This document shows, piece by piece, positions 8,206 to 24,465 of a DNA stretch of 64,000 nucleotides. The stretch spans positions 1 through 64,000 of the forward strand of contig JAKSHX010000002.1 of the NCBI GenBank assembly GCA_024399155.1. The letters are read 5' to 3'. A program made the translations under genes and the position numbers. The notes below the pieces were generated by a model. The model did not search any database. It was given only the letters and a program-made list of their open reading frames with translations, and was not told the origin of the DNA. Numbering within the stretch: the first letter of the stretch is position 1; the number at the start of each line of letters is the position of its first letter. This DNA is from an archaeon. GTDB taxonomy: Archaea > Thermoplasmatota > Thermoplasmata > Methanomassiliicoccales > Methanomethylophilaceae.

Positions 8206-8628
8206 TCACACACTTTTTTTGTTATTAAAAATGTACATCCCCAGGCGTTTCAGATTATTTTCTAACATCTCGCGGTTTATACTAAAAAGATGAGTCTGAC
8301 AATTACAATCTGAACATCCAAATCCAATCACGGCAGGTATGCCACCTTTTTTTATCACAAATTCCGCAAGGTCGCATTCCGTTATCTTTGGGTCTTCGGT
8401 TTCATATGCTAACATATTTTTACATAACATAGTAAGATAGTCGATATGCCAGTGTACCGTTTTCTTACATGAAAAATGCCTTGATAGACGCTGATCTAAT
8501 CCACACTTGGCACTTCCAACATAACAGTAATCCCCGGCCAAAAGCTTAACAGATCCTAAAGATCCGACTCTTGTTTTTATATCTGAATGAAAGTGAAGAA
8601 AAAGAACATAGGTCCCTTTTCGAATCAT
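8206..8628 (-). CDS. DUF123 protein, GIY-YIG-nuclease-like
   Basis: A 140-residue protein. It begins KGTYVLFLHF, then GDYCYVGSA, GLDQRLSRHF and HWHIDYL, the motif order of DUF123, a GIY-YIG-related family sometimes found fused to endonuclease III. The GTY...YVG pair corresponds to GIY-YIG. The C-terminal half has CSDCNCQTHLF, a Cys/His group typical of this family. Its start overlaps the mmp7 stop (ATGA), making it the last gene of the MCR activation operon. Why a nuclease-like protein sits there is unknown; it may simply be carried along. Confidence 0.75.
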   Translation of the reverse strand: MIRKGTYVLFLHFHSDIKTRVGSLGSVKLLAGDYCYVGSAKCGLDQRLSRHFSCKKTVHWHIDYLTMLCKNMLAYETEDPKITECDLAEFVIKKGGIPAVIGFGCSDCNCQTHLFSINREMLENNLKRLGMYIFNNKKSV

Positions 8629-9557
8629 TGCGTTTTCCCTTTATCCTCATATTCAATTTCAGAAAGTGTTTTGATATGGATAATTGTGCTGCTATCATCA
8701 ATCTTTGACTCAGATACCCTGGCTATTTCTTTTAATTTGCGCCCGTAGACTTCAAGGCTATTAAAATAATCCTTGTGTTCTCTATACGAAATTTTAACTC
8801 TGAGACTATCAAGATGTAACACGATAGGTGCCGGCCTAAGACTCATGTTAATTGGTTCATACTCTTCCAAAAGTTTTTTGAGTTCTGCAGGATGAATAAA
8901 CAGTGGATCCTCCTCAAGCATTGTCTTTTTATTTTTAATAACCTCATCGATAGCGTCCCCGATCTCTTGAAGTTTTTTCATTTCTTCGGGGGACTTCATT
9001 CTTTCAGCTTTACGTCCAACGCCTGATACTACAACTTCACAATTGTCCTCAAAATTTTCTATCGGAGGTCCACAAACCAAAATAACAGGCGTGTTGATGT
9101 TTTTGAACAGTTCCTTTTTAGTGTCTATACAGTTCTTAAAATTCCCGAGCATAAACACAGCCGCGTCATACTCTTCGATAATACTCTTCTCCTGAGCAGA
9201 AATCTGTGATGTATTCTTTCCTCTCCCTCTAGCAAGGCCCATTACCGCAGTAATGCCCCCATATTGTCTCACTTCTTCTGCTATATCGCATATGGGATGG
9301 GGCATATGATGCCTCCCTAATGTACAACCGATGACGGCAATTTCTGTTCCGGCCAATGGAACACATTTTACCTCCCCTCCAATACTCTGACAAACCTTTG
9401 AAATGAAATCTTTATCTTCCCCCGGGATGGACATTGTTACGGTCAGTATCTGCGCACTTCTAGTTGTTTGAAGAATCACACCTCCAACATCTTCTATGGC
9501 TTCAAACAGCTCCTCTGACCTGTAAACACCACCGTCATACATCATTACCTCAAACAT
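8625..9557 (-). CDS. mmp7: methanogenesis marker protein 7 (MCR activation)
   Basis: A 310-residue protein with the family core AGTEIAV...LGRHHMPHPICDIAEE, then MGLARGRGK, FMLGNFKNC and VILVCGPP. Mmp7 occurs in methane-metabolising archaea and, as I recall, is a component of the ATP-dependent MCR activation complex with McrC, Mmp3, Mmp17 and A2. The central region (about residues 75-195) is recognisably related to McrC encoded upstream in the same operon: both share an R-H-basic run, a P-[IV]-C-[DE]-I motif, LGN and ILVC. The start ATG overlaps the mmp17 stop (TGATG), implying translational coupling. Confidence 0.9.
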   Translation of the reverse strand: MFEVMMYDGGVYRSEELFEAIEDVGGVILQTTRSAQILTVTMSIPGEDKDFISKVCQSIGGEVKCVPLAGTEIAVIGCTLGRHHMPHPICDIAEEVRQYGGITAVMGLARGRGKNTSQISAQEKSIIEEYDAAVFMLGNFKNCIDTKKELFKNINTPVILVCGPPIENFEDNCEVVVSGVGRKAERMKSPEEMKKLQEIGDAIDEVIKNKKTMLEEDPLFIHPAELKKLLEEYEPINMSLRPAPIVLHLDSLRVKISYREHKDYFNSLEVYGRKLKEIARVSESKIDDSSTIIHIKTLSEIEYEDKGKTQ

Positions 9558-10117
9558 CAGACTACCCCTCCCAAAGATTTATGCAAAGTACTACCCTCTT
9601 TCACCATTTCTGGGCAGATAATTTCTTCAGTTGCAATGACGGTTATAACTTTACCATCAAAAATACTGTGTCTGACTTTGATGCCTTCGGGCATTATCCT
9701 CCATAACGCGCCTATAATGTCTTTTTTGACTTCTTCTCCTGAAGATACTTGGAGTTCAGCTATGATATCTTCTTTACCATTTATCACGACAAGATCGAAC
9801 CTTGTCTGTTGTTCTACATTATCTCTCCCGTAATTCTTCCACAGTTGAGATAATATATCTGGGGCGTATCTTTCGTCAGATATCGACAAGTGGGTTTCAT
9901 TACCTTCTTGCCTTAGTGATGCCACATCAGATATTACTTTGTTTACAGGTTTATTAATTAACCTTATACTAAAAATGAACAATGGTATTTCGGGTTTAAG
10001 TATGATTTTCGTTTTATCGATCAGTGTTGCTTTACCGACATCACTTATTATTGTCTCAAACAATGTTTTGTAAGCAGAACATCCGTACGAGTCAGATCCT
10101 ACTACTTCTACTTCCAT
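9557..10117 (-). CDS. mmp17: methanogenesis marker protein 17 (MCR activation)
   Basis: A 186-residue protein starting MEVEVVGSDSYG, the N-terminal signature of Mmp17. It has no obvious catalytic motif and few Cys, so it is probably a structural subunit. Known context: Mmp17 goes with Mmp7, Mmp3, McrC and A2 in MCR reductive activation. Here it lies between mmp15 (9-base gap) and mmp7 (overlap), supporting a joint role. Assignment is by N-terminal motif, length and position. Confidence 0.85.
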   Translation of the reverse strand: MEVEVVGSDSYGCSAYKTLFETIISDVGKATLIDKTKIILKPEIPLFIFSIRLINKPVNKVISDVASLRQEGNETHLSISDERYAPDILSQLWKNYGRDNVEQQTRFDLVVINGKEDIIAELQVSSGEEVKKDIIGALWRIMPEGIKVRHSIFDGKVITVIATEEIICPEMVKEGSTLHKSLGGVV

Positions 10118-10126
10118 AAAGCACCT

Positions 10127-11347
10127 TTACAAGAATCCTGAGCTGAGAAGTGCTCCTCCAACAGCTCCGATGTATTGTGAATCAGGTGGGACAATTGGTG
10201 GCTCTCCAAGTATTTCCCCGATAGCCTTAACGAGCCCCGCGTTGAGTGATGTTCCCCCTACCTGGATAATTGGATGCCTAACATCAATTTCTTGAAGTTG
10301 TTGCTCATAAACCTGTTCTGCAACTGAGTGACACGCCGCTGCTGCGACATCTTCAAATGGTTTACCCTCCCCAAGCGTAGTAACTAAGTCTTGAATACCA
10401 AAGACTGAACAATATGAGTTCATTTTGGCATTTATCCAGTTACCTTTCACTGCATATGATCCTAAATCGGCAATATTAATTCTAAGTCTTTTGGCAGTCA
10501 TTTCTAAAAACCTTCCAGATGCTCCTGCACAAACTCCTCCCATTGTGAAATTATCTGGAATGCCGTCACGAACTGTGATAGCTTTATTATCCATTCCTCC
10601 AATGTCGATGATTGTCGCCTCTCCTGACTGCTTGCCCGCGAGCCATGCTGCGCCTTTGGAATTTACTGTTAACTCCTCTTGCACCAGTTTAGCATTAAAA
10701 TATTTGCCGAGTGTAAAGCGCCCATACCCTGTTGTTCCAATAGCTTCGATATCTTTTGGTTTAACATCAGCTTGCTCCATAGCTTCTTTTAAAACAGTCG
10801 TTGCTGATTGTACAACATCTCCAGTGGACGCCCACGATTTTCCCAGAATTTTATTGTCTTTCATAATGACAGCTTTAGTTGTTGATGACCCAGAATCTAA
10901 TCCTGCTGTAAGCCCAGTCTGTCTAGTTCTTGATAAAAGATCTTTTCTTTCTACGATGGTTACGAGAGCTTCCATTCTTGTCAGAAGCTGGGATGATTTG
11001 AGTCTTTCTGTAAAAGAGTATGTAACGACTGGTAGCCTAGTATTCTCCTGTATAAACCTTCTAAGTTCATTTCTTACAAGAGACGCCTCAGCACACCTAA
11101 AACATGTTGTGATAAAAACGGCGTCTGCATCATATCTGTCGTCCGCAAGTTGTACAGCTCTTGCAATCATAAGTTTAAGTTGTGGGGATTTAGGATCAAA
11201 TCCAAACCTGTCCACAGCTTCGTTGATATCTTCTGCAGAAACGTCTGGATAAACTATTTTGGCTCCGACACTACGGGCAGCTTTCTCTATCTCAAATTGT
11301 ATGCCGCTATACTCTGTCCCACATGAAAGTTGCGCAATCCTGATCAT
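10127..11347 (-). CDS. mmp15: methanogenesis marker protein 15, HgdC/BadF-type ATPase
   Basis: A 406-residue protein in two parts. Residues 1-140 resemble a reduced 2-hydroxyacyl-CoA dehydratase D-component (HgdB-like) with Cys9, Cys82 and Cys85 (TTCFRC). Residues 145-406 are an ASKHA ATPase of the BcrA/BadF/HgdC group: phosphate loop [12 protein letters not shown] near 149, IIDIGGMD near 247, [13 protein letters not shown] with Cys273, NSYCSVFG with Cys313, and QVGGTSLN. In HgdC dimers the two corresponding Cys per subunit hold one [4Fe-4S] cluster that fires low-potential electrons on ATP hydrolysis. Inference: Mmp15 could energise electrons for Ni(II)-to-Ni(I) reduction of F430 in MCR. It sits mid-operon, one base after mmp5. 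Confidence 0.9.
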
Positions 11348-11348
11348 G

Positions 11349-11792
11349 TCAGCTGATCTCCTTCAATTTCTCAAAAAATTCCTTTATTTTAGAGACAATG
11401 AGTTTACCTTGCTCTTCATTTTCTGGATATGACACATGTACTACAGGAATTCCTCGCTTTTTTATAAGATACTTTACCATCTGATTTGAACGTTCACACC
11501 CTACGCATCCAAAGGCAAATGGAGCGTCTTCCATGATTATAGCTGCATCAGCTTCTTCAATAAGAGGGCCCCATACTGCCAGTCTTCCTCTTATCCCAGA
11601 AGGAACTTCAATCCCTGCATATTTAAGGCCTTTGACTACGTCATCTAACGATATGTTCATAGGAGGCATGTCTATCTCTGTGTTATTCACCATTTCCCGA
11701 AGCGCTATCATTGCACAGAGTGGCTCGTGACCAAATCTTTCCACCAAATCAAATAAAATCATACTGTTTGGAGGATCAATGAATACCTTCAT
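11349..11792 (-). CDS. mmp5: methanogenesis marker protein 5
   Basis: A 147-residue protein beginning [21 protein letters not shown], the conserved start of Mmp5. The middle carries [10 protein letters not shown], a CxxC pair that could bind metal or be redox-active, and a following VVHVSYP segment. Mmp5 is restricted to methanogens and relatives; no reaction is known to me. Start and stop overlap or abut its neighbours (mmp6 stop TAATG; mmp15 start after one base), so it is translated as part of the activation operon. Confidence 0.87.
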
Positions 11793-12211
11793 TAGCCCAC
11801 CTCACAAATCTTTTTGAATTTTGTGACTGAAAGTTGTTTCTTTTGAGTGACCTCTTTGGGTTTTTCACCTCTATTTGACGCGTCAAGTCCTATTTTTATA
11901 TATGAAAGCGCTTTCCACTCCGTTTCCAACTGTGCATAACCTGGTCTAGTACCATGTTTAGCGCGACATCTCCTTTGATCTCCACACGGATATGCTCTTA
12001 CCTTCGAAAATATACCATTCGGGTCTAAATTTCTTATCTCATCACGTATCTCTCTTACGGTTTCACTCGGGCCTTCCACTAAGCATCCATAACATGTTTC
12101 TTTCACGGTCACCTTTTTTCCGGACATATGGATCATACGTGTGAGTTGATCCGGTGTTATGTGGGAAGAAGGCGAAATCATAATGACTCTTGTCTCCATT
12201 CCTTCACTCAT
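11792..12211 (-). CDS. mmp6: methanogenesis marker protein 6
   Basis: A 139-residue protein with VIMISPSSHITPDQLTR, KETCYGCLVEG and VRAYPCGDQRRCRAKHGTRPGYAQLE, all characteristic of Mmp6. It holds four well-placed Cys (CYGC and CGDQRRC). Function is unproven in any organism that I know of; cofactor or cluster handling is plausible from the Cys pattern and the neighbours. It overlaps mmp3 by 4 bases and mmp5 by 1 base. Confidence 0.87.
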   Translation of the reverse strand: MSEGMETRVIMISPSSHITPDQLTRMIHMSGKKVTVKETCYGCLVEGPSETVREIRDEIRNLDPNGIFSKVRAYPCGDQRRCRAKHGTRPGYAQLETEWKALSYIKIGLDASNRGEKPKEVTQKKQLSVTKFKKICEVG

Positions 12212-13728
12212 ATTTTACCCTCCATAACATATACAACTTTACCTTCACTTACATTCCTCATAAAATCGTCAAGATCGCCTTCAAATCTTCCGAAAATATT
12301 TGTTGAATAACCTTCTTCACCAGTGGGCCCATAAATCTTATCATCTTTCAATCTGATGCCTATCAGGCCTGCAGAATTATCTTTTACCTGGTTTGTAAGT
12401 CCTAGGTCTCCACGTTTACATTTTTTGAATGGGTCATCTGGATACAACGTATGCGCTCTAGACTTGTCGCCTTCGAAGGTAATCATTGGCATACCTTCAA
12501 AAGTGAAAAAAACTTTAAGAGAGCCGATAGGTTTGTGACTGAGTCCAGTAACCTTTTCAAAATAATGTACACTGGCCGGTGACTTTTTTCTGTTAAGGGA
12601 TATTTTGTATATGTTTTCTTTTTTGACTGCAAAAGTTTCAACTTCCCCTGCTTTAAGTGCATCGATCGTTCTTTCAGGAATCTGCTCAACAACTATAGCA
12701 TCATCAGATGTGTCTCCAATTCTTTTTTGCTTTACTCCTCTAGATTCAAGAAATTTAAATGCCTCTTTTTGTGTCATACCGACAGAAAGAAGACGAGGTG
12801 GATTTACGACGATACCAATCATATCATTTGCTTTTGCTAAAGAAATTATGGGAAGCCCTCTTACAACTTTTCCAACGCTATTATGTGACATGGAGAGTTG
12901 CCTTCTCTCTTTGTAAAACAATACACGACCGAGACCAACACCTTGCGATCTCACCACTACGGTACCTTTATCTCTAACTTCTTTACTCTCTTCGACCATT
13001 GTTATATCTTGATCATCAGAGCATGCGACATAGCTTCCAGTTGCTTCCGAAATGTTAATATAGCGTTTATCTGCCAAAATAAGGAGATGTTCTGCGCTTT
13101 TTGGCGAATTATAATTAAGATCCACCGCTACGCAAGTATCCACTTTGTAACCATCCTCGAGCTTGGTCTTCATGTTCGTTGTTACAATGATGTTATCTAA
13201 ACTCTCTTCTGACTTTAGTGGTCTGACTTTTTTAATGTAGTCTCCTTCGTGAAGTACATTAAGCATGTGTCTTCCTTTTGTTATGTGGCCTATGCGACCA
13301 CTTCCCGCTCCGTAAGATCGTTTATGGTCTTCTTTGGCGATCATGAAATATGTAGTTTGATTGTCGTTACCTCCTAGAGAAAAAAAGCAATCATAACGTT
13401 TACACATTCGTTCAGATTTATTCGATTTTATATTTGTCTGAAATGCACCAAAGGCATCAACTTTCTCCGTTACCCATTTTAAAGATAAACCGGACATCAT
13501 AGGGCTTATCTCTCTCCAGATCTTGGCGTCATTAGAATCATCCAAACGAATTACGATGGTACCCCTATCTGTTACAATCTCGAAATCTTCTGATTCCTTG
13601 GTTAGTTTCTCCGTAGACATGTAAACCGACACTAGAGTGCCTTTAACGTAGTACTCACCTTCTAGTGCCTCTTTTAATGTTGCCCCATCAGGAAGTTCCT
13701 TATCCTTTCCGTTAACTTTTACTATCAT
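12208..13728 (-). CDS. mmp3: methanogenesis marker protein 3 (UPF0288; MCR activation)
   Basis: A 506-residue protein of the methanogen-specific UPF0288/Mmp3 family. It opens with a ThiS/MoaD-like beta-grasp segment ([18 protein letters not shown]), followed by a long mixed alpha/beta body with [27 protein letters not shown] and a C-terminal LIGIRLKDD...FGPT-like region ([12 protein letters not shown]). Mmp3 is, to my knowledge, a subunit of the MCR activation complex. The gene starts with ATG overlapping the mcrC stop by 4 bases and is overlapped by mmp6. Length matches the family. Confidence 0.9.
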
Positions 13729-14354
13729 TTTAGACTCTTTCTCTTCATTTCTGGTAGCATTTTCTGTACTTTAGATACAATCTCGTCAAGTTTATCCTGA
13801 GAACAGGAAACCCCTCTTATAACACCATTAACGATCTCGATTATCGTTCCCTTTGACTTAACATTCTCGTCTTTAGGCATAACTGCAGAAGTTTTTATAC
13901 CAATACGTGCGAAATCTTCGAAATCAACAGGACACTGACACACAAGTATCGCAGGTATGTCGACGTTTCTTAAAATGAGTCTCGCTTTCCATATGATGTG
14001 ACTACGCACATTCCCTAAGTGAATAAGCGCAACTTTGAATTGCTGGATCCTTTCGACTTCTATTGGCTCTAGACCCATACATTGTCCATGAGATACATCT
14101 TCTGCATCAGCTGGAACACCTGCGCCAGCATTAAGAACTAACACGGACGTGTCGATACCTTCTTCCCTAAGAGCATATGTTATCTCACAAACTGGTTTTG
14201 TAATATGTCTTCTTCCAGGGCCCATAGCAATAGCTATAACGTCTCCTCCACTTTCAGATATAGTGGCTCTCTGGGCGAGCCCTCCGCCTCTGCCCATACC
14301 CATAGATTCTCGACATTCGACAAAATTGAGGTGTCTTCCGATCCTTTTTTTCAA
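13725..14354 (-). CDS. mcrC: McrC, MCR operon protein C / activation factor
   Basis: A 209-residue protein with [21 protein letters not shown] at the N terminus, then [32 protein letters not shown] and [13 protein letters not shown]. This is McrC, which in many methanogens lies inside mcrBDCGA. Here it is missing from that operon (21.2-23.0 kb) and is instead the second gene of the activation operon, overlapping atwA and mmp3 by 4 bases each. It is homologous to the central region of Mmp7 six genes downstream. Role: binds MCR and the activation factors; the GRRH...PVC segment probably forms the functional core. Confidence 0.93.
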
Positions 14355-15976
14355 ATCTGCCCACCATTCTGTTCTGCATATTCCCTCTCAATGCTTTCAA
14401 ACCCGGAAACAATATCCTCCGGTTTTCCAATATGAACAATTTTCCCATCCCTCATAAGAGCTGCACGATCACAACAATTCAAAACAAAATCCATATCATG
14501 ACTAACGACAACAAATGTTTCCCCAAGTTCTTTTCTTGCAGACAATACGGCCTGAGCAACTGTAACCTTTGTTATTGGGTCCATCGTACCTGTCGGTTCA
14601 TCAAGAATAATAATACGAGGCTCCTTGATAAGAACCTGTGCAAATGCAACTCTTTGTTGCTCTCCCACAGAAAGAGCATCAGGATATGCCATAAGAATAT
14701 TTTCAATGTCCTTCTCATGGAATCCGACAGATGTTAACACCTGAATCGCCTTCATCTTAGCAAGTTCAGCAGGCATCGTGATACCTATACATGCACTCAA
14801 GTTCCGAAGTATGTTATCAAATGGGTATAACGTGTATTCTTGGTGGAGAAATCCGATATAAGAAGTGGCTCTTCCTTTACCTGCAAATCCAGATTCTGAC
14901 ATGTCAATCCAGTCATCACCAATTTTAATTTTTACGGTACCAGACGTTGCAGGAGTCATTCCAGCAATCATACGAGATGTAGTAGTCTTGCCTGCTCCAG
15001 ACAAACCCACAAGTGCAAATATCTCATTCTCCTTTATGTCGAGTGTAACTCCATCAACAGCTTTGACTACTCCCCTCACTACCGAAAAAAAGTGTTTTGT
15101 AGCATTTTCTACCAGAATGAGGTCTTTGCCGATACTAATGTCCTCGTTCCTCTCAAACTGATACTCTTCCATAAATTTCTTTGTGACAGTACTGGGTTCT
15201 CCATGCATTAAGACGTTTCCGGAATCGAGCCAAATAGCTTCGTCTGCCATTTTTTCAATAGCTTCTGGCCAATGTGATGCAAACACCATACATATATTAT
15301 GAGTGCGAACATAGTTCACTAACCTTTCATGTACTAAATTGGCAGTAAAAGGATCAAGGGTACCAGTAGGTTCATCTGCGAGGAAAAATAAAGGATTCTT
15401 TGCTAACTGTCTTGCCATGACGACCCTTTGCTTCTCTCCTCCTGACAGATCCCTTGCAATATGAGTTGTCCTATGCTTCATGTTTACAAGGTTCAAAAGT
15501 TCGATAGTTTTATCGATCTTTTCTTTATCATTGACCTTTTCGTCAAAAGCTTCAAATATATTTTCCATGACGGTGTTGTCGCCGAATAAAGCAAAGGTCC
15601 TTTGTAACATGATTGAAATTCGTGCCTTTAATTTTTGTCTGATCGGGTCGCGCTCGTGAAGAGAATAGTAATCAACCCACTTATCGACAACTTTTCCACC
15701 ACATTTGGTACATGAAATTCCTTCAAAGGGAATATCGAGGTTACCACATTTGAGGCATTGATTAACATGATAAAGCACTTTTCCGGAATCAGGGGCATAT
15801 TCTTGTGTTCCCCTTATCATATGAATAAGGACACTTTTGCCAGCGGCGCTCTTTCCAATTAATCCTAAAATTTTACCAGTAGACAGCGTTGCAGAGACAT
15901 TATTAAGCACTGTCCTTCCTTCGAACTTCTTTGATACGTTCTCAATTTTAAGAAGGTCTACAGACTTTTGAACCAT
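14351..15976 (-). CDS. atwA: component A2, ATPase of MCR reductive activation
   Basis: A 541-residue soluble protein with two ABC-ATPase domains and no membrane segment. Domain 1: Walker A GKSAAGKS (41-48), signature LSGGEKQRV, Walker [14 protein letters not shown] zinc-ribbon-like insert lies at residues 74-92 (CLKC...CTKC). Domain 2: Walker [10 protein letters not shown], signature LSVGEQQRV, Walker [13 protein letters not shown]. The twin-ABC layout and the Cys insert are those of AtwA, the ATP-binding component A2 required to activate MCR. First gene of the operon. The ATG is 26 bases from a TATA box and has no Shine-Dalgarno sequence, so translation is probably leaderless. Confidence 0.93.
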
Positions 15977-18485: not shown

Positions 18486-18773
18486 TTATCCGCCGCCACT
18501 GGGAGTAAATCCAGATATGTCGACCTCCTCCCTCTCTTTTATCAAATCTTCAACAGATTTAAGTCCAGTTTGGAAGTCGGTCTTTCTATACTTGAATTTG
18601 ATCTCTTTGTATTCACTGACGTCTGCGGGAACTAGTAAGCTGGAGTCATACCACAATCCGGTAAAATCGAGCAGAACCCAACTCTTTCCATCATGCTCAC
18701 GAACATCCAGTACTTTCCCCACTGTAGACGTCGGCATATACTTGTAGATCTCTCCCAATCGCATTCGATTCAC
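18486..18773 (-). CDS. DUF2098 protein behind mcrA
   Basis: A 95-residue protein matching DUF2098, a small family of methanogens: YKYMPTSTVGKVLDV...GKSWVLLDFTGLWYDSSLLVPAD, then a helical tail and a Gly-rich end. The fold is probably a small beta barrel. It begins two bases after the mcrA stop and is therefore the fifth gene of an mcrB-D-G-A-DUF2098 operon. The location suggests a part in MCR assembly or modification; no activity is known to me. The first Met is used because it directly abuts mcrA. Confidence 0.75.
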   Translation of the reverse strand: MNRMRLGEIYKYMPTSTVGKVLDVREHDGKSWVLLDFTGLWYDSSLLVPADVSEYKEIKFKYRKTDFQTGLKSVEDLIKEREEVDISGFTPSGGG

Positions 18774-23232: not shown

Positions 23233-24465
23233 CTAGAATGTATTTGATTTTGACCATTTTCCCCAACATCTTAACCCTTCACGCTCCGAATCCATAGCTG
23301 AGACTTCCATTCCAGGAATTATAACTCTTACTGTAGGTATTCCAATTTCCGGACGTGTCAGATCCGAAACAATCACTCTATCAAACCCCACGTTCATGAC
23401 CTTCCCCAAAACTAATTCGATATCATCAAGAACATATGGAGTTGCTTCGTTCTTGAGTTTTGATAATTCTATTTTATTTTTATTAGAACGGTACCACATA
23501 GCGTTTGCTTTCTTGATATTCTCATAACCCATGTCGCGGGTTTTTTTCTGTAATTCTGCATTAACCTTAAGACCGTGTTTATGAGCCGTTCTGCTTTGAG
23601 CAACCTCTGTAAGTGCTCTTATAACAGCAATTTCAGGATCTAGATGTGTTCCAAGACCGATGTTTAGCATCTCCGGATCTTTAGTTCTGACATCATCTGA
23701 TGATGCGGCTATAGTTGTCACTTCCACATCTGTTGTTAAATTCTTTAAATTGACTTCTACCCCTGCATTTTTAAACTGTTTCAGCAACTTTCCAGATACG
23801 GAATTTTCATCATCTATGATAACATCTGCCTTGGTCATGTTAAATGATTCTGCTATAGACCACGCGTCTCTCTCAATAACTTCAAACATCGCATGGAGAA
23901 TTGCTTCCTCTATTGTGTTTCCAGCCGCAAGGCCGTTGGTGTGAAACCTAAATAACTGAAGATCTCCGTCTGGATAATAAGGATAGAATACCGCGCATGC
24001 AGGAACCCAAACATTCTCCCCCCTTAAAATATCATAACATTCAGTCCAAGCAATTTCAGATGATTCTAGTCCATTCATAATACGTGCTGGGAGGATCATG
24101 TCAATGGGTTCCACGTAAGACATGTCAGCCTCCCTCATTTTCTTAAGAGTCCCATATGCTATAACATCTGTTTCCTTAAGTTCAGCGCTATATCTTTCCA
24201 TTGCCTCCATAATGGCAGAAGCTTTTGCTTGATCTGGCGTTACACCTTTCCCATTATAATTGCCAAATGTTCCCTTAGCAGTTATTTTACGATTAACTGA
24301 ATATACGGGGATCTTCAAGTTGTCTATATTTGTTATATCCTCTACTTGGTCGATTCCCACTTTTTCAAGCATTGAAGATACTCTTTTGATCGTTTCTTTT
24401 GGCGATATAACTCTTATCCCTGTGCTTGCAGATACCTTTGGACAACGCTTCAGTTCGAGTCCCAT
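23233..24465 (-). CDS. ycaO: YcaO-domain protein, likely McrA thioglycine synthesis
   Basis: A 410-residue YcaO protein. ATP/Mg-binding blocks of the family are present: ASAIMEAMERYSAE, HAMFEVIERDA and TEVAQSR. YcaO enzymes activate a backbone amide with ATP; in methanogens YcaO, often with TfuA, makes the thioglycine of McrA. Position supports this: it is on the mcr strand, 234 bases before mcrB and 9 bases after an Lrp-type gene. No tfuA is seen in the window, so either it lies elsewhere or this YcaO works without it. The C terminus (WGKWSKSNTF) has no Pro-rich tail. Confidence 0.87.
   Translation of the reverse strand: MGLELKRCPKVSASTGIRVISPKETIKRVSSMLEKVGIDQVEDITNIDNLKIPVYSVNRKITAKGTFGNYNGKGVTPDQAKASAIMEAMERYSAELKETDVIAYGTLKKMREADMSYVEPIDMILPARIMNGLESSEIAWTECYDILRGENVWVPACAVFYPYYPDGDLQLFRFHTNGLAAGNTIEEAILHAMFEVIERDAWSIAESFNMTKADVIIDDENSVSGKLLKQFKNAGVEVNLKNLTTDVEVTTIAASSDDVRTKDPEMLNIGLGTHLDPEIAVIRALTEVAQSRTAHKHGLKVNAELQKKTRDMGYENIKKANAMWYRSNKNKIELSKLKNEATPYVLDDIELVLGKVMNVGFDRVIVSDLTRPEIGIPTVRVIIPGMEVSAMDSEREGLRCWGKWSKSNTF

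Follow-up and report, generated by a model that had tools for sequence, protein, structure and literature searches.

How the nickel of cofactor F430 is brought to Ni(I) is a recognised gap in the biology of methanogens. The free cofactor has a potential of ca. -650 mV and ferredoxin one of about -400 mV (PMC12176620). The structure of the MCR activation complex published in 2025 (McrC, Mmp7, Mmp17, Mmp3, A2, and DUF2098) revealed an ABC ATPase as well as clusters arranged in a chain, but the reductant was artificial and the activity low (PMC12176620). Three clusters are of the [8Fe-9S-C] type; McrC holds two of them and Mmp7 the one at the surface, FeSIII. With Ti(III) citrate as reductant, and with ATP acting through A2 alone, the complex yields some active MCR. 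With DTT it does not work, and the authors call on further Mmp proteins that would lower the redox barrier (PMC12176620). We have focussed our analyses on a stretch of 64,000 nucleotides (the window) from a Methanomassiliicoccales genome of 1.29 Mb, and on the question of whether one of its genes, mmp15, could encode such a factor. A preliminary description of the sequence had read its product as a built-in archerase for F430, a reading that our results support in part.

The open reading frame at 10127-11347 is a real gene encoding Mmp15 (Table 1). Its product reached 674.2 bits against the TIGR03286 profile (cut-off 455.75), covering all of it (1-404 of 404), and as such is a member, above the curated cut-off, of the methanogenesis marker 15 family (TIGR03286, arCOG02679). 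Up to now this family has been named only as a marker or as a CoA activase, e.g., CoA-substrate-specific enzyme activase (PMC4153887), and in the open-access literature naming Mmp15 we found no description of a second domain or of a mechanism. The gene is the sixth in a minus-strand operon in the order A2, McrC, Mmp3, Mmp6, Mmp5, Mmp15, Mmp17, Mmp7, and DUF123, where neighbours overlap by 1-4 bases or sit 1-9 bases apart. The mcr genes and the DUF2098 gene are located just upstream on the same strand, so that all six proteins of the published complex are encoded here, in the operon or, for DUF2098, beside mcrA. The order A2-C-3-6-5-15-17-7 is kept in the great majority of the 80 Methanomassiliicoccales loci with a long enough contig, and the same gene block has been listed for Methanohalophilus (PMC3226654). 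Marker profiles and conserved gene order therefore bear out the placement of the gene in the MCR activation operon that had been proposed from the sequence. The cluster ligands of McrC and Mmp7 are also maintained, with the equivalents of the McrC ligands (C14, H50, C56, and H119) kept in 63 of 63 sequences and the cluster ligands of Mmp7 (H84, C90, and C143) in 76 of 76. Mmp7 scored 293 bits where TIGR03274 sets its cut-off at 349, and this cut-off may exclude the Mmp7 of the order. Two other genes of the contig deserve mention. A YcaO-family protein, possibly the McrA glycine thioamidation enzyme, is encoded just upstream of mcrB (23233-24465, minus strand), and NifB with a C-terminal NifX-like part is found outside the window, at ~73.2-73.8 kb of the contig that also carries mcr and mmp.

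Table 1. Features of the mmp15 locus, in window coordinates, with the evidence for each.
Feature	Position	Strand	Evidence and remarks
DUF123/GIY-YIG-like protein	8206..8628	-	PF01986; operon end; syntenic in order
mmp7	8625..9557	-	TIGR03274 (sub-cut-off), PF04609
mmp17	9557..10117	-	TIGR03291; in published complex
mmp15	10127..11347	-	406 aa, ATG start; TIGR03286, PF01869, hhalign, AlphaFold2
Mmp15 ATPase domain, residues 146-406, with C273, C313, C339	10130..10912	-	Alignments, fold match
Mmp15 N-domain, residues 1-143, with C9, C82, C85	10919..11347	-	hhalign and model
mmp5 (DUF2112)	11349..11792	-	147 aa; TIGR03271, hhalign, Foldseek
mmp6 (DUF2102)	11792..12211	-	TIGR03272
mmp3	12208..13728	-	TIGR03268; in published complex (PMC12176620)
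mcrC	13725..14354	-	TIGR03264
Component A2 (AtwA), ABC ATPase of activation complex	14351..15976	-	TIGR03269, 751 bits
DUF2098 protein	18486..18773	-	PF09871; just downstream of mcrA

Mmp15 is an HgdB-family C-terminal alpha/beta domain fused to an HgdC-type ATPase at residues 146-405 (single-chain AlphaFold2 model, pLDDT 89.0). The ATPase part, already recognised in the preliminary description together with its cysteines 273 and 313, was confirmed by PF01869 (BcrAD/BadFG ATPase; residues 149-401, 226.5 bits, E 5.9e-67), by TIGR00241 (acyl-CoA dehydratase activase; 303.9 bits) and by a phmmer alignment to HgdC (1HUX), which pairs C273 with Cys127 and C313 with Cys166. The two cluster cysteines are kept in all 26 activases compared, and the phosphate loops, along with D151, G153, K158, D248, and G250, agree with that family. 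The best fold matches of the ATPase model were MbdQ, HgdC, HadI, and DCCP-R (target TM 0.78-0.92), i.e., the top ones are all cluster-bearing activases, with kinases and other ASKHA proteins far behind. By its ATPase fold, phosphate loops and two cluster cysteines this domain is an HgdC-type ATPase. C9, C82, C85, C273, C313, and C339 are each present in 80 of 80 further sequences, counted within Methanomassiliicoccales, and the five cysteines named beforehand, C273 and C313 among them, are thus invariant in the order. C339, in the ATPase domain, makes a sixth, with a near-invariant H340 next to it; at the position of C339 other activases mostly have His.

Mmp15 shares its ATPase fold, its phosphate loops and the two cluster cysteines with HgdC and HadI (1HUX, 4EHT), the activators of 2-hydroxyacyl-CoA dehydratases. 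It differs from them by an added N-terminal domain, by altered residues around the cluster and by the lack of a dehydratase to serve. Along similar lines, the closest solved ATPase domain, both in sequence and in fold, belongs to the electron-activating subunits of class I benzoyl-CoA reductases (BzdQ/MbdQ, 9GAI), although Mmp15 is a fusion and its genome has no aromatic substrate enzyme. Five residues set Mmp15 apart from all 26 activases (Q252M, K272V, G276A, E318I, and E320D). They lie beside the cluster or the nucleotide. Such replacements fit a changed partner, but they are also a reason for caution.

The N-terminal domain was far less conspicuous. Searched alone, residues 1-143 gave no match in Pfam or in PDB sequences, and no HGD-D match in PDB profiles. 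An alignment of HGD-D and DCCP proteins did match them by hhalign, with 94.3% probability and a score of 47.3. Since the relationship is seen only by profile-profile comparison, we ran 100 column shuffles, the reversed profile and the other operon proteins as controls. The best of the shuffles reached 4.5% (score 20.3), the reversed profile 0.7%, and the operon proteins, Mmp5 excepted, stayed below 5%. In the alignment, C85 falls on the invariant third cluster cysteine of the HGD-D/BCR/DCCP family, and the motif QLLTRMEA on the QLxTRVEA end of the HGD-D/DCCP family. The AlphaFold2 model shows a single alpha/beta domain of 143 residues with four strands alternating with helices, and in BzdN and BzdO the C-terminal domains have been described as arranged in this way (PMC11971306). 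From the profile match and this arrangement we conclude that the N-domain is the single C-terminal alpha/beta domain of the HgdB/benzoyl-CoA-reductase/double-cubane family, and not a whole subunit. The preliminary description of these ca. 140 residues as a shrunken dehydratase subunit was then right about the family and wrong about the extent; PF06050 itself gave no match, and where a subunit of that family comprises two alpha/beta domains and a helical one, here there is only one. Of the three invariant cluster cysteines of PF06050 proteins only the third (C85) is found in the N-domain, the domain bearing the other two standard ligands being absent from Mmp15. In other words, C9, C82, and C85 are present and invariant as had been noted, but C85 alone is homologous to a known ligand and C9 and C82 are extra.

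A probable origin for this fusion can be seen in bacteria. Alignments of Mmp15 obtained by tblastn span the end of a yjiM-type gene and continue into the next gene, of the yjiL type, and in the bacterial loci retrieved an ATPase gene lies directly downstream of 13 of 42 HGD-D domains. Judging from this adjacent gene order, it is likely that Mmp15 arose from such a pair. DCCP and DCCP-R (YjiM and YjiL in Escherichia coli) have the same two types of domain in the same gene order as Mmp15, and it is the C-terminal domain of DCCP/YjiM that the N-domain of Mmp15 and also Mmp5 resemble. DCCP, however, is complete, a double-cubane protein of two domains that has six cluster cysteines. By comparison, Mmp15 (in its N-domain) and Mmp5 offer only fragments, the former with three cysteines and the latter with two.

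The gene for Mmp5 is directly upstream of mmp15 and ends one base before its start. The protein carries an invariant CxxC (C96-x2-C99, 78 of 78) and matched the C-terminal end of HGD-D proteins with 78% probability by hhalign, with shuffles at 3.5% or less. Its model, of moderate confidence, had DCCP (7yyl) as best Foldseek match and HadBC (3o3m) and BzdNO (8s02) within the top ten, at E-values of only 0.02-0.07. Besides, one member of the family weakly matched PF06050, and a search of PDB profiles listed DCCP with an E-value of 1.6. Each of these signals is weak, but they agree with one another, and we take Mmp5 as a probable second C-terminal fragment of the HGD-D/DCCP family, one that the preliminary description had missed. 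A direct profile comparison of Mmp5 with the N-domain of Mmp15 was negative (3%). We also considered a simple split DCCP, with Mmp5 as its N-terminal half and the Mmp15 N-domain as its C-terminal half. The sequence gives this arrangement no support, as Mmp5 fits the C-terminal half of DCCP better (78% vs. 20%). Mmp6, encoded on the other side of mmp5, has two invariant cysteines of its own (C40 and C82, 75 of 75).

Within the phylum, a family search found full-length Mmp15 restricted to Methanomassiliicoccales, the methanogen order, and there were matches as well in two control genomes of other methanogens. This is in line with the literature, where Mmp15 is listed for all sequenced methanogens, including those without methylotrophy (PMC4153887, PMC3226654). 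No relatives were found in viral contigs. Some genomes of the order have no Mmp15, but five of the seven that we re-checked also had no mcrA, or had it only in pieces; most of these genomes are fragmentary and are poor evidence for loss of the gene. In one genome of the order, 96% complete, none of mcrA, Mmp15, and Mmp5 was found. Either an assembly gap spans the whole block or this lineage has lost methanogenesis.

Mmp15 is the sole PF01869 protein of its genome, and no PF06050 dehydratase, reductase or DCCP was matched in it or in the other genomes of the order that we examined. With no such protein to act upon, Mmp15 cannot serve an ordinary dehydratase or a benzoyl-CoA reductase. A sole activase without a dehydratase, encoded in this operon next to a complex that needs extra factors, is best accounted for as an archerase feeding the cluster chain. 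We thus lean, with moderate confidence, towards Mmp15 being an archerase, an electron activator like HgdC that is driven by ATP and reserved for the machinery of MCR activation. In favor of this, its N-domain is homologous to the very domain into which HgdC-type ATPases deliver their electrons, and a related enzyme served by HgdC accepts electrons below -600 mV (PMC11971306).

In such a scheme, a single [4Fe-4S] cluster would be held jointly by two copies of Mmp15, each ATPase domain contributing its C273 and C313, and ATP binding and hydrolysis would push an electron derived from ferredoxin to a very low potential. HgdC passes its electron to a separate dehydratase, whereas Mmp15 would bear a piece of the partner on its own N-terminus (C9/C82/C85), with Mmp5 (C96/C99), encoded next door, as the second candidate piece. 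From both, the electron would pass on to the activation complex, with the FeSIII cluster on the surface of Mmp7 as its likeliest entry point, and would then travel via FeSII and FeSI to F430 and take Ni(II) to Ni(I). The binding of the cluster, the dimer, the partner, the target and the direction of flow are all features that we infer. A more specific version of this scheme is a second ATP engine beside A2, where Mmp15 and Mmp5 form a split gate for electrons resembling a double-cubane protein, one fragment fused to its own archerase and the whole feeding a nitrogenase-type cluster chain to F430. We regard this version as possible, if on balance doubtful.

There are observations that count against an electron injector. 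Although the subunits of the published complex share an operon with mmp15 in Methanomassiliicoccales, Mmp15, Mmp5, and Mmp6 are precisely the marker proteins of that operon that are absent from it, and they are not reported in two McrC pull-downs either (PMC12176620, PMC9584954). The first two would be missing from the finished complex if they acted earlier, and the main rival, rather unlikely in our opinion, is that they work in maturation, giving the low-potential electrons needed to assemble the [8Fe-9S-C] clusters or to insert them into McrC and Mmp7. NifB is the maker of such clusters; in nitrogenase cofactor maturation ATP-driven reductases do act, NifH supplying electrons to NifEN. NifB is encoded on the same contig here and adjoins the mmp cluster in M. 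marburgensis (PMC12176620). Maturation would leave unexplained, however, that a mild reductant is not enough for the complex to work. In addition, we know of no maturase with the fold of Mmp15 or Mmp5.

The active MCR obtained by A2 alone with Ti(III) citrate also weighs against the injector, as do the residues altered around cluster and nucleotide and the single canonical ligand left in the N-domain. If electron transfer had been lost, Mmp15 could be a structural or regulatory ATPase, and A2 alone would activate MCR by opening it and raising the potential of F430. The authors of the complex do propose that ATP raises this potential (PMC12176620), and residues around both cluster cysteines have changed. 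The strict conservation of C273, C313, and four more cysteines in 80 sequences, though, is hard to explain without metal binding, and we consider this alternative improbable. Its database name, CoA-substrate-specific enzyme activase, would suggest instead that Mmp15 re-reduces another target, be it an acyl-CoA dehydratase, the corrinoid proteins of methylotrophic growth or a step of F430 biosynthesis. Such a role seems very improbable, given a genome without PF06050 proteins, a gene locked into the MCR activation operon and its listing in non-methylotrophic methanogens. F430 biosynthesis, for its part, has its own reductase, CfbCD.

As a pump domain powered by ATP and joined to a piece of the enzyme that such pumps usually serve, Mmp15 is a promising candidate for the factor still lacking in the switching on of MCR. 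In the version with Mmp5 as a split gate, it would be a methanogen-wide and self-contained archerase whose acceptor is the activation complex of a nickel enzyme and not an acyl-CoA enzyme. An archerase in the same operon names a pair of proteins, Mmp15 and Mmp5, for the MCR activation assay, and gives a second possible meaning to the ATP requirement. It may be relevant as well to efforts at producing active MCR in foreign hosts or at stopping methane production. If this reading is true, the electron-firing device of the 2-hydroxyacyl-CoA dehydratases would be placed at the base of methanogenesis.
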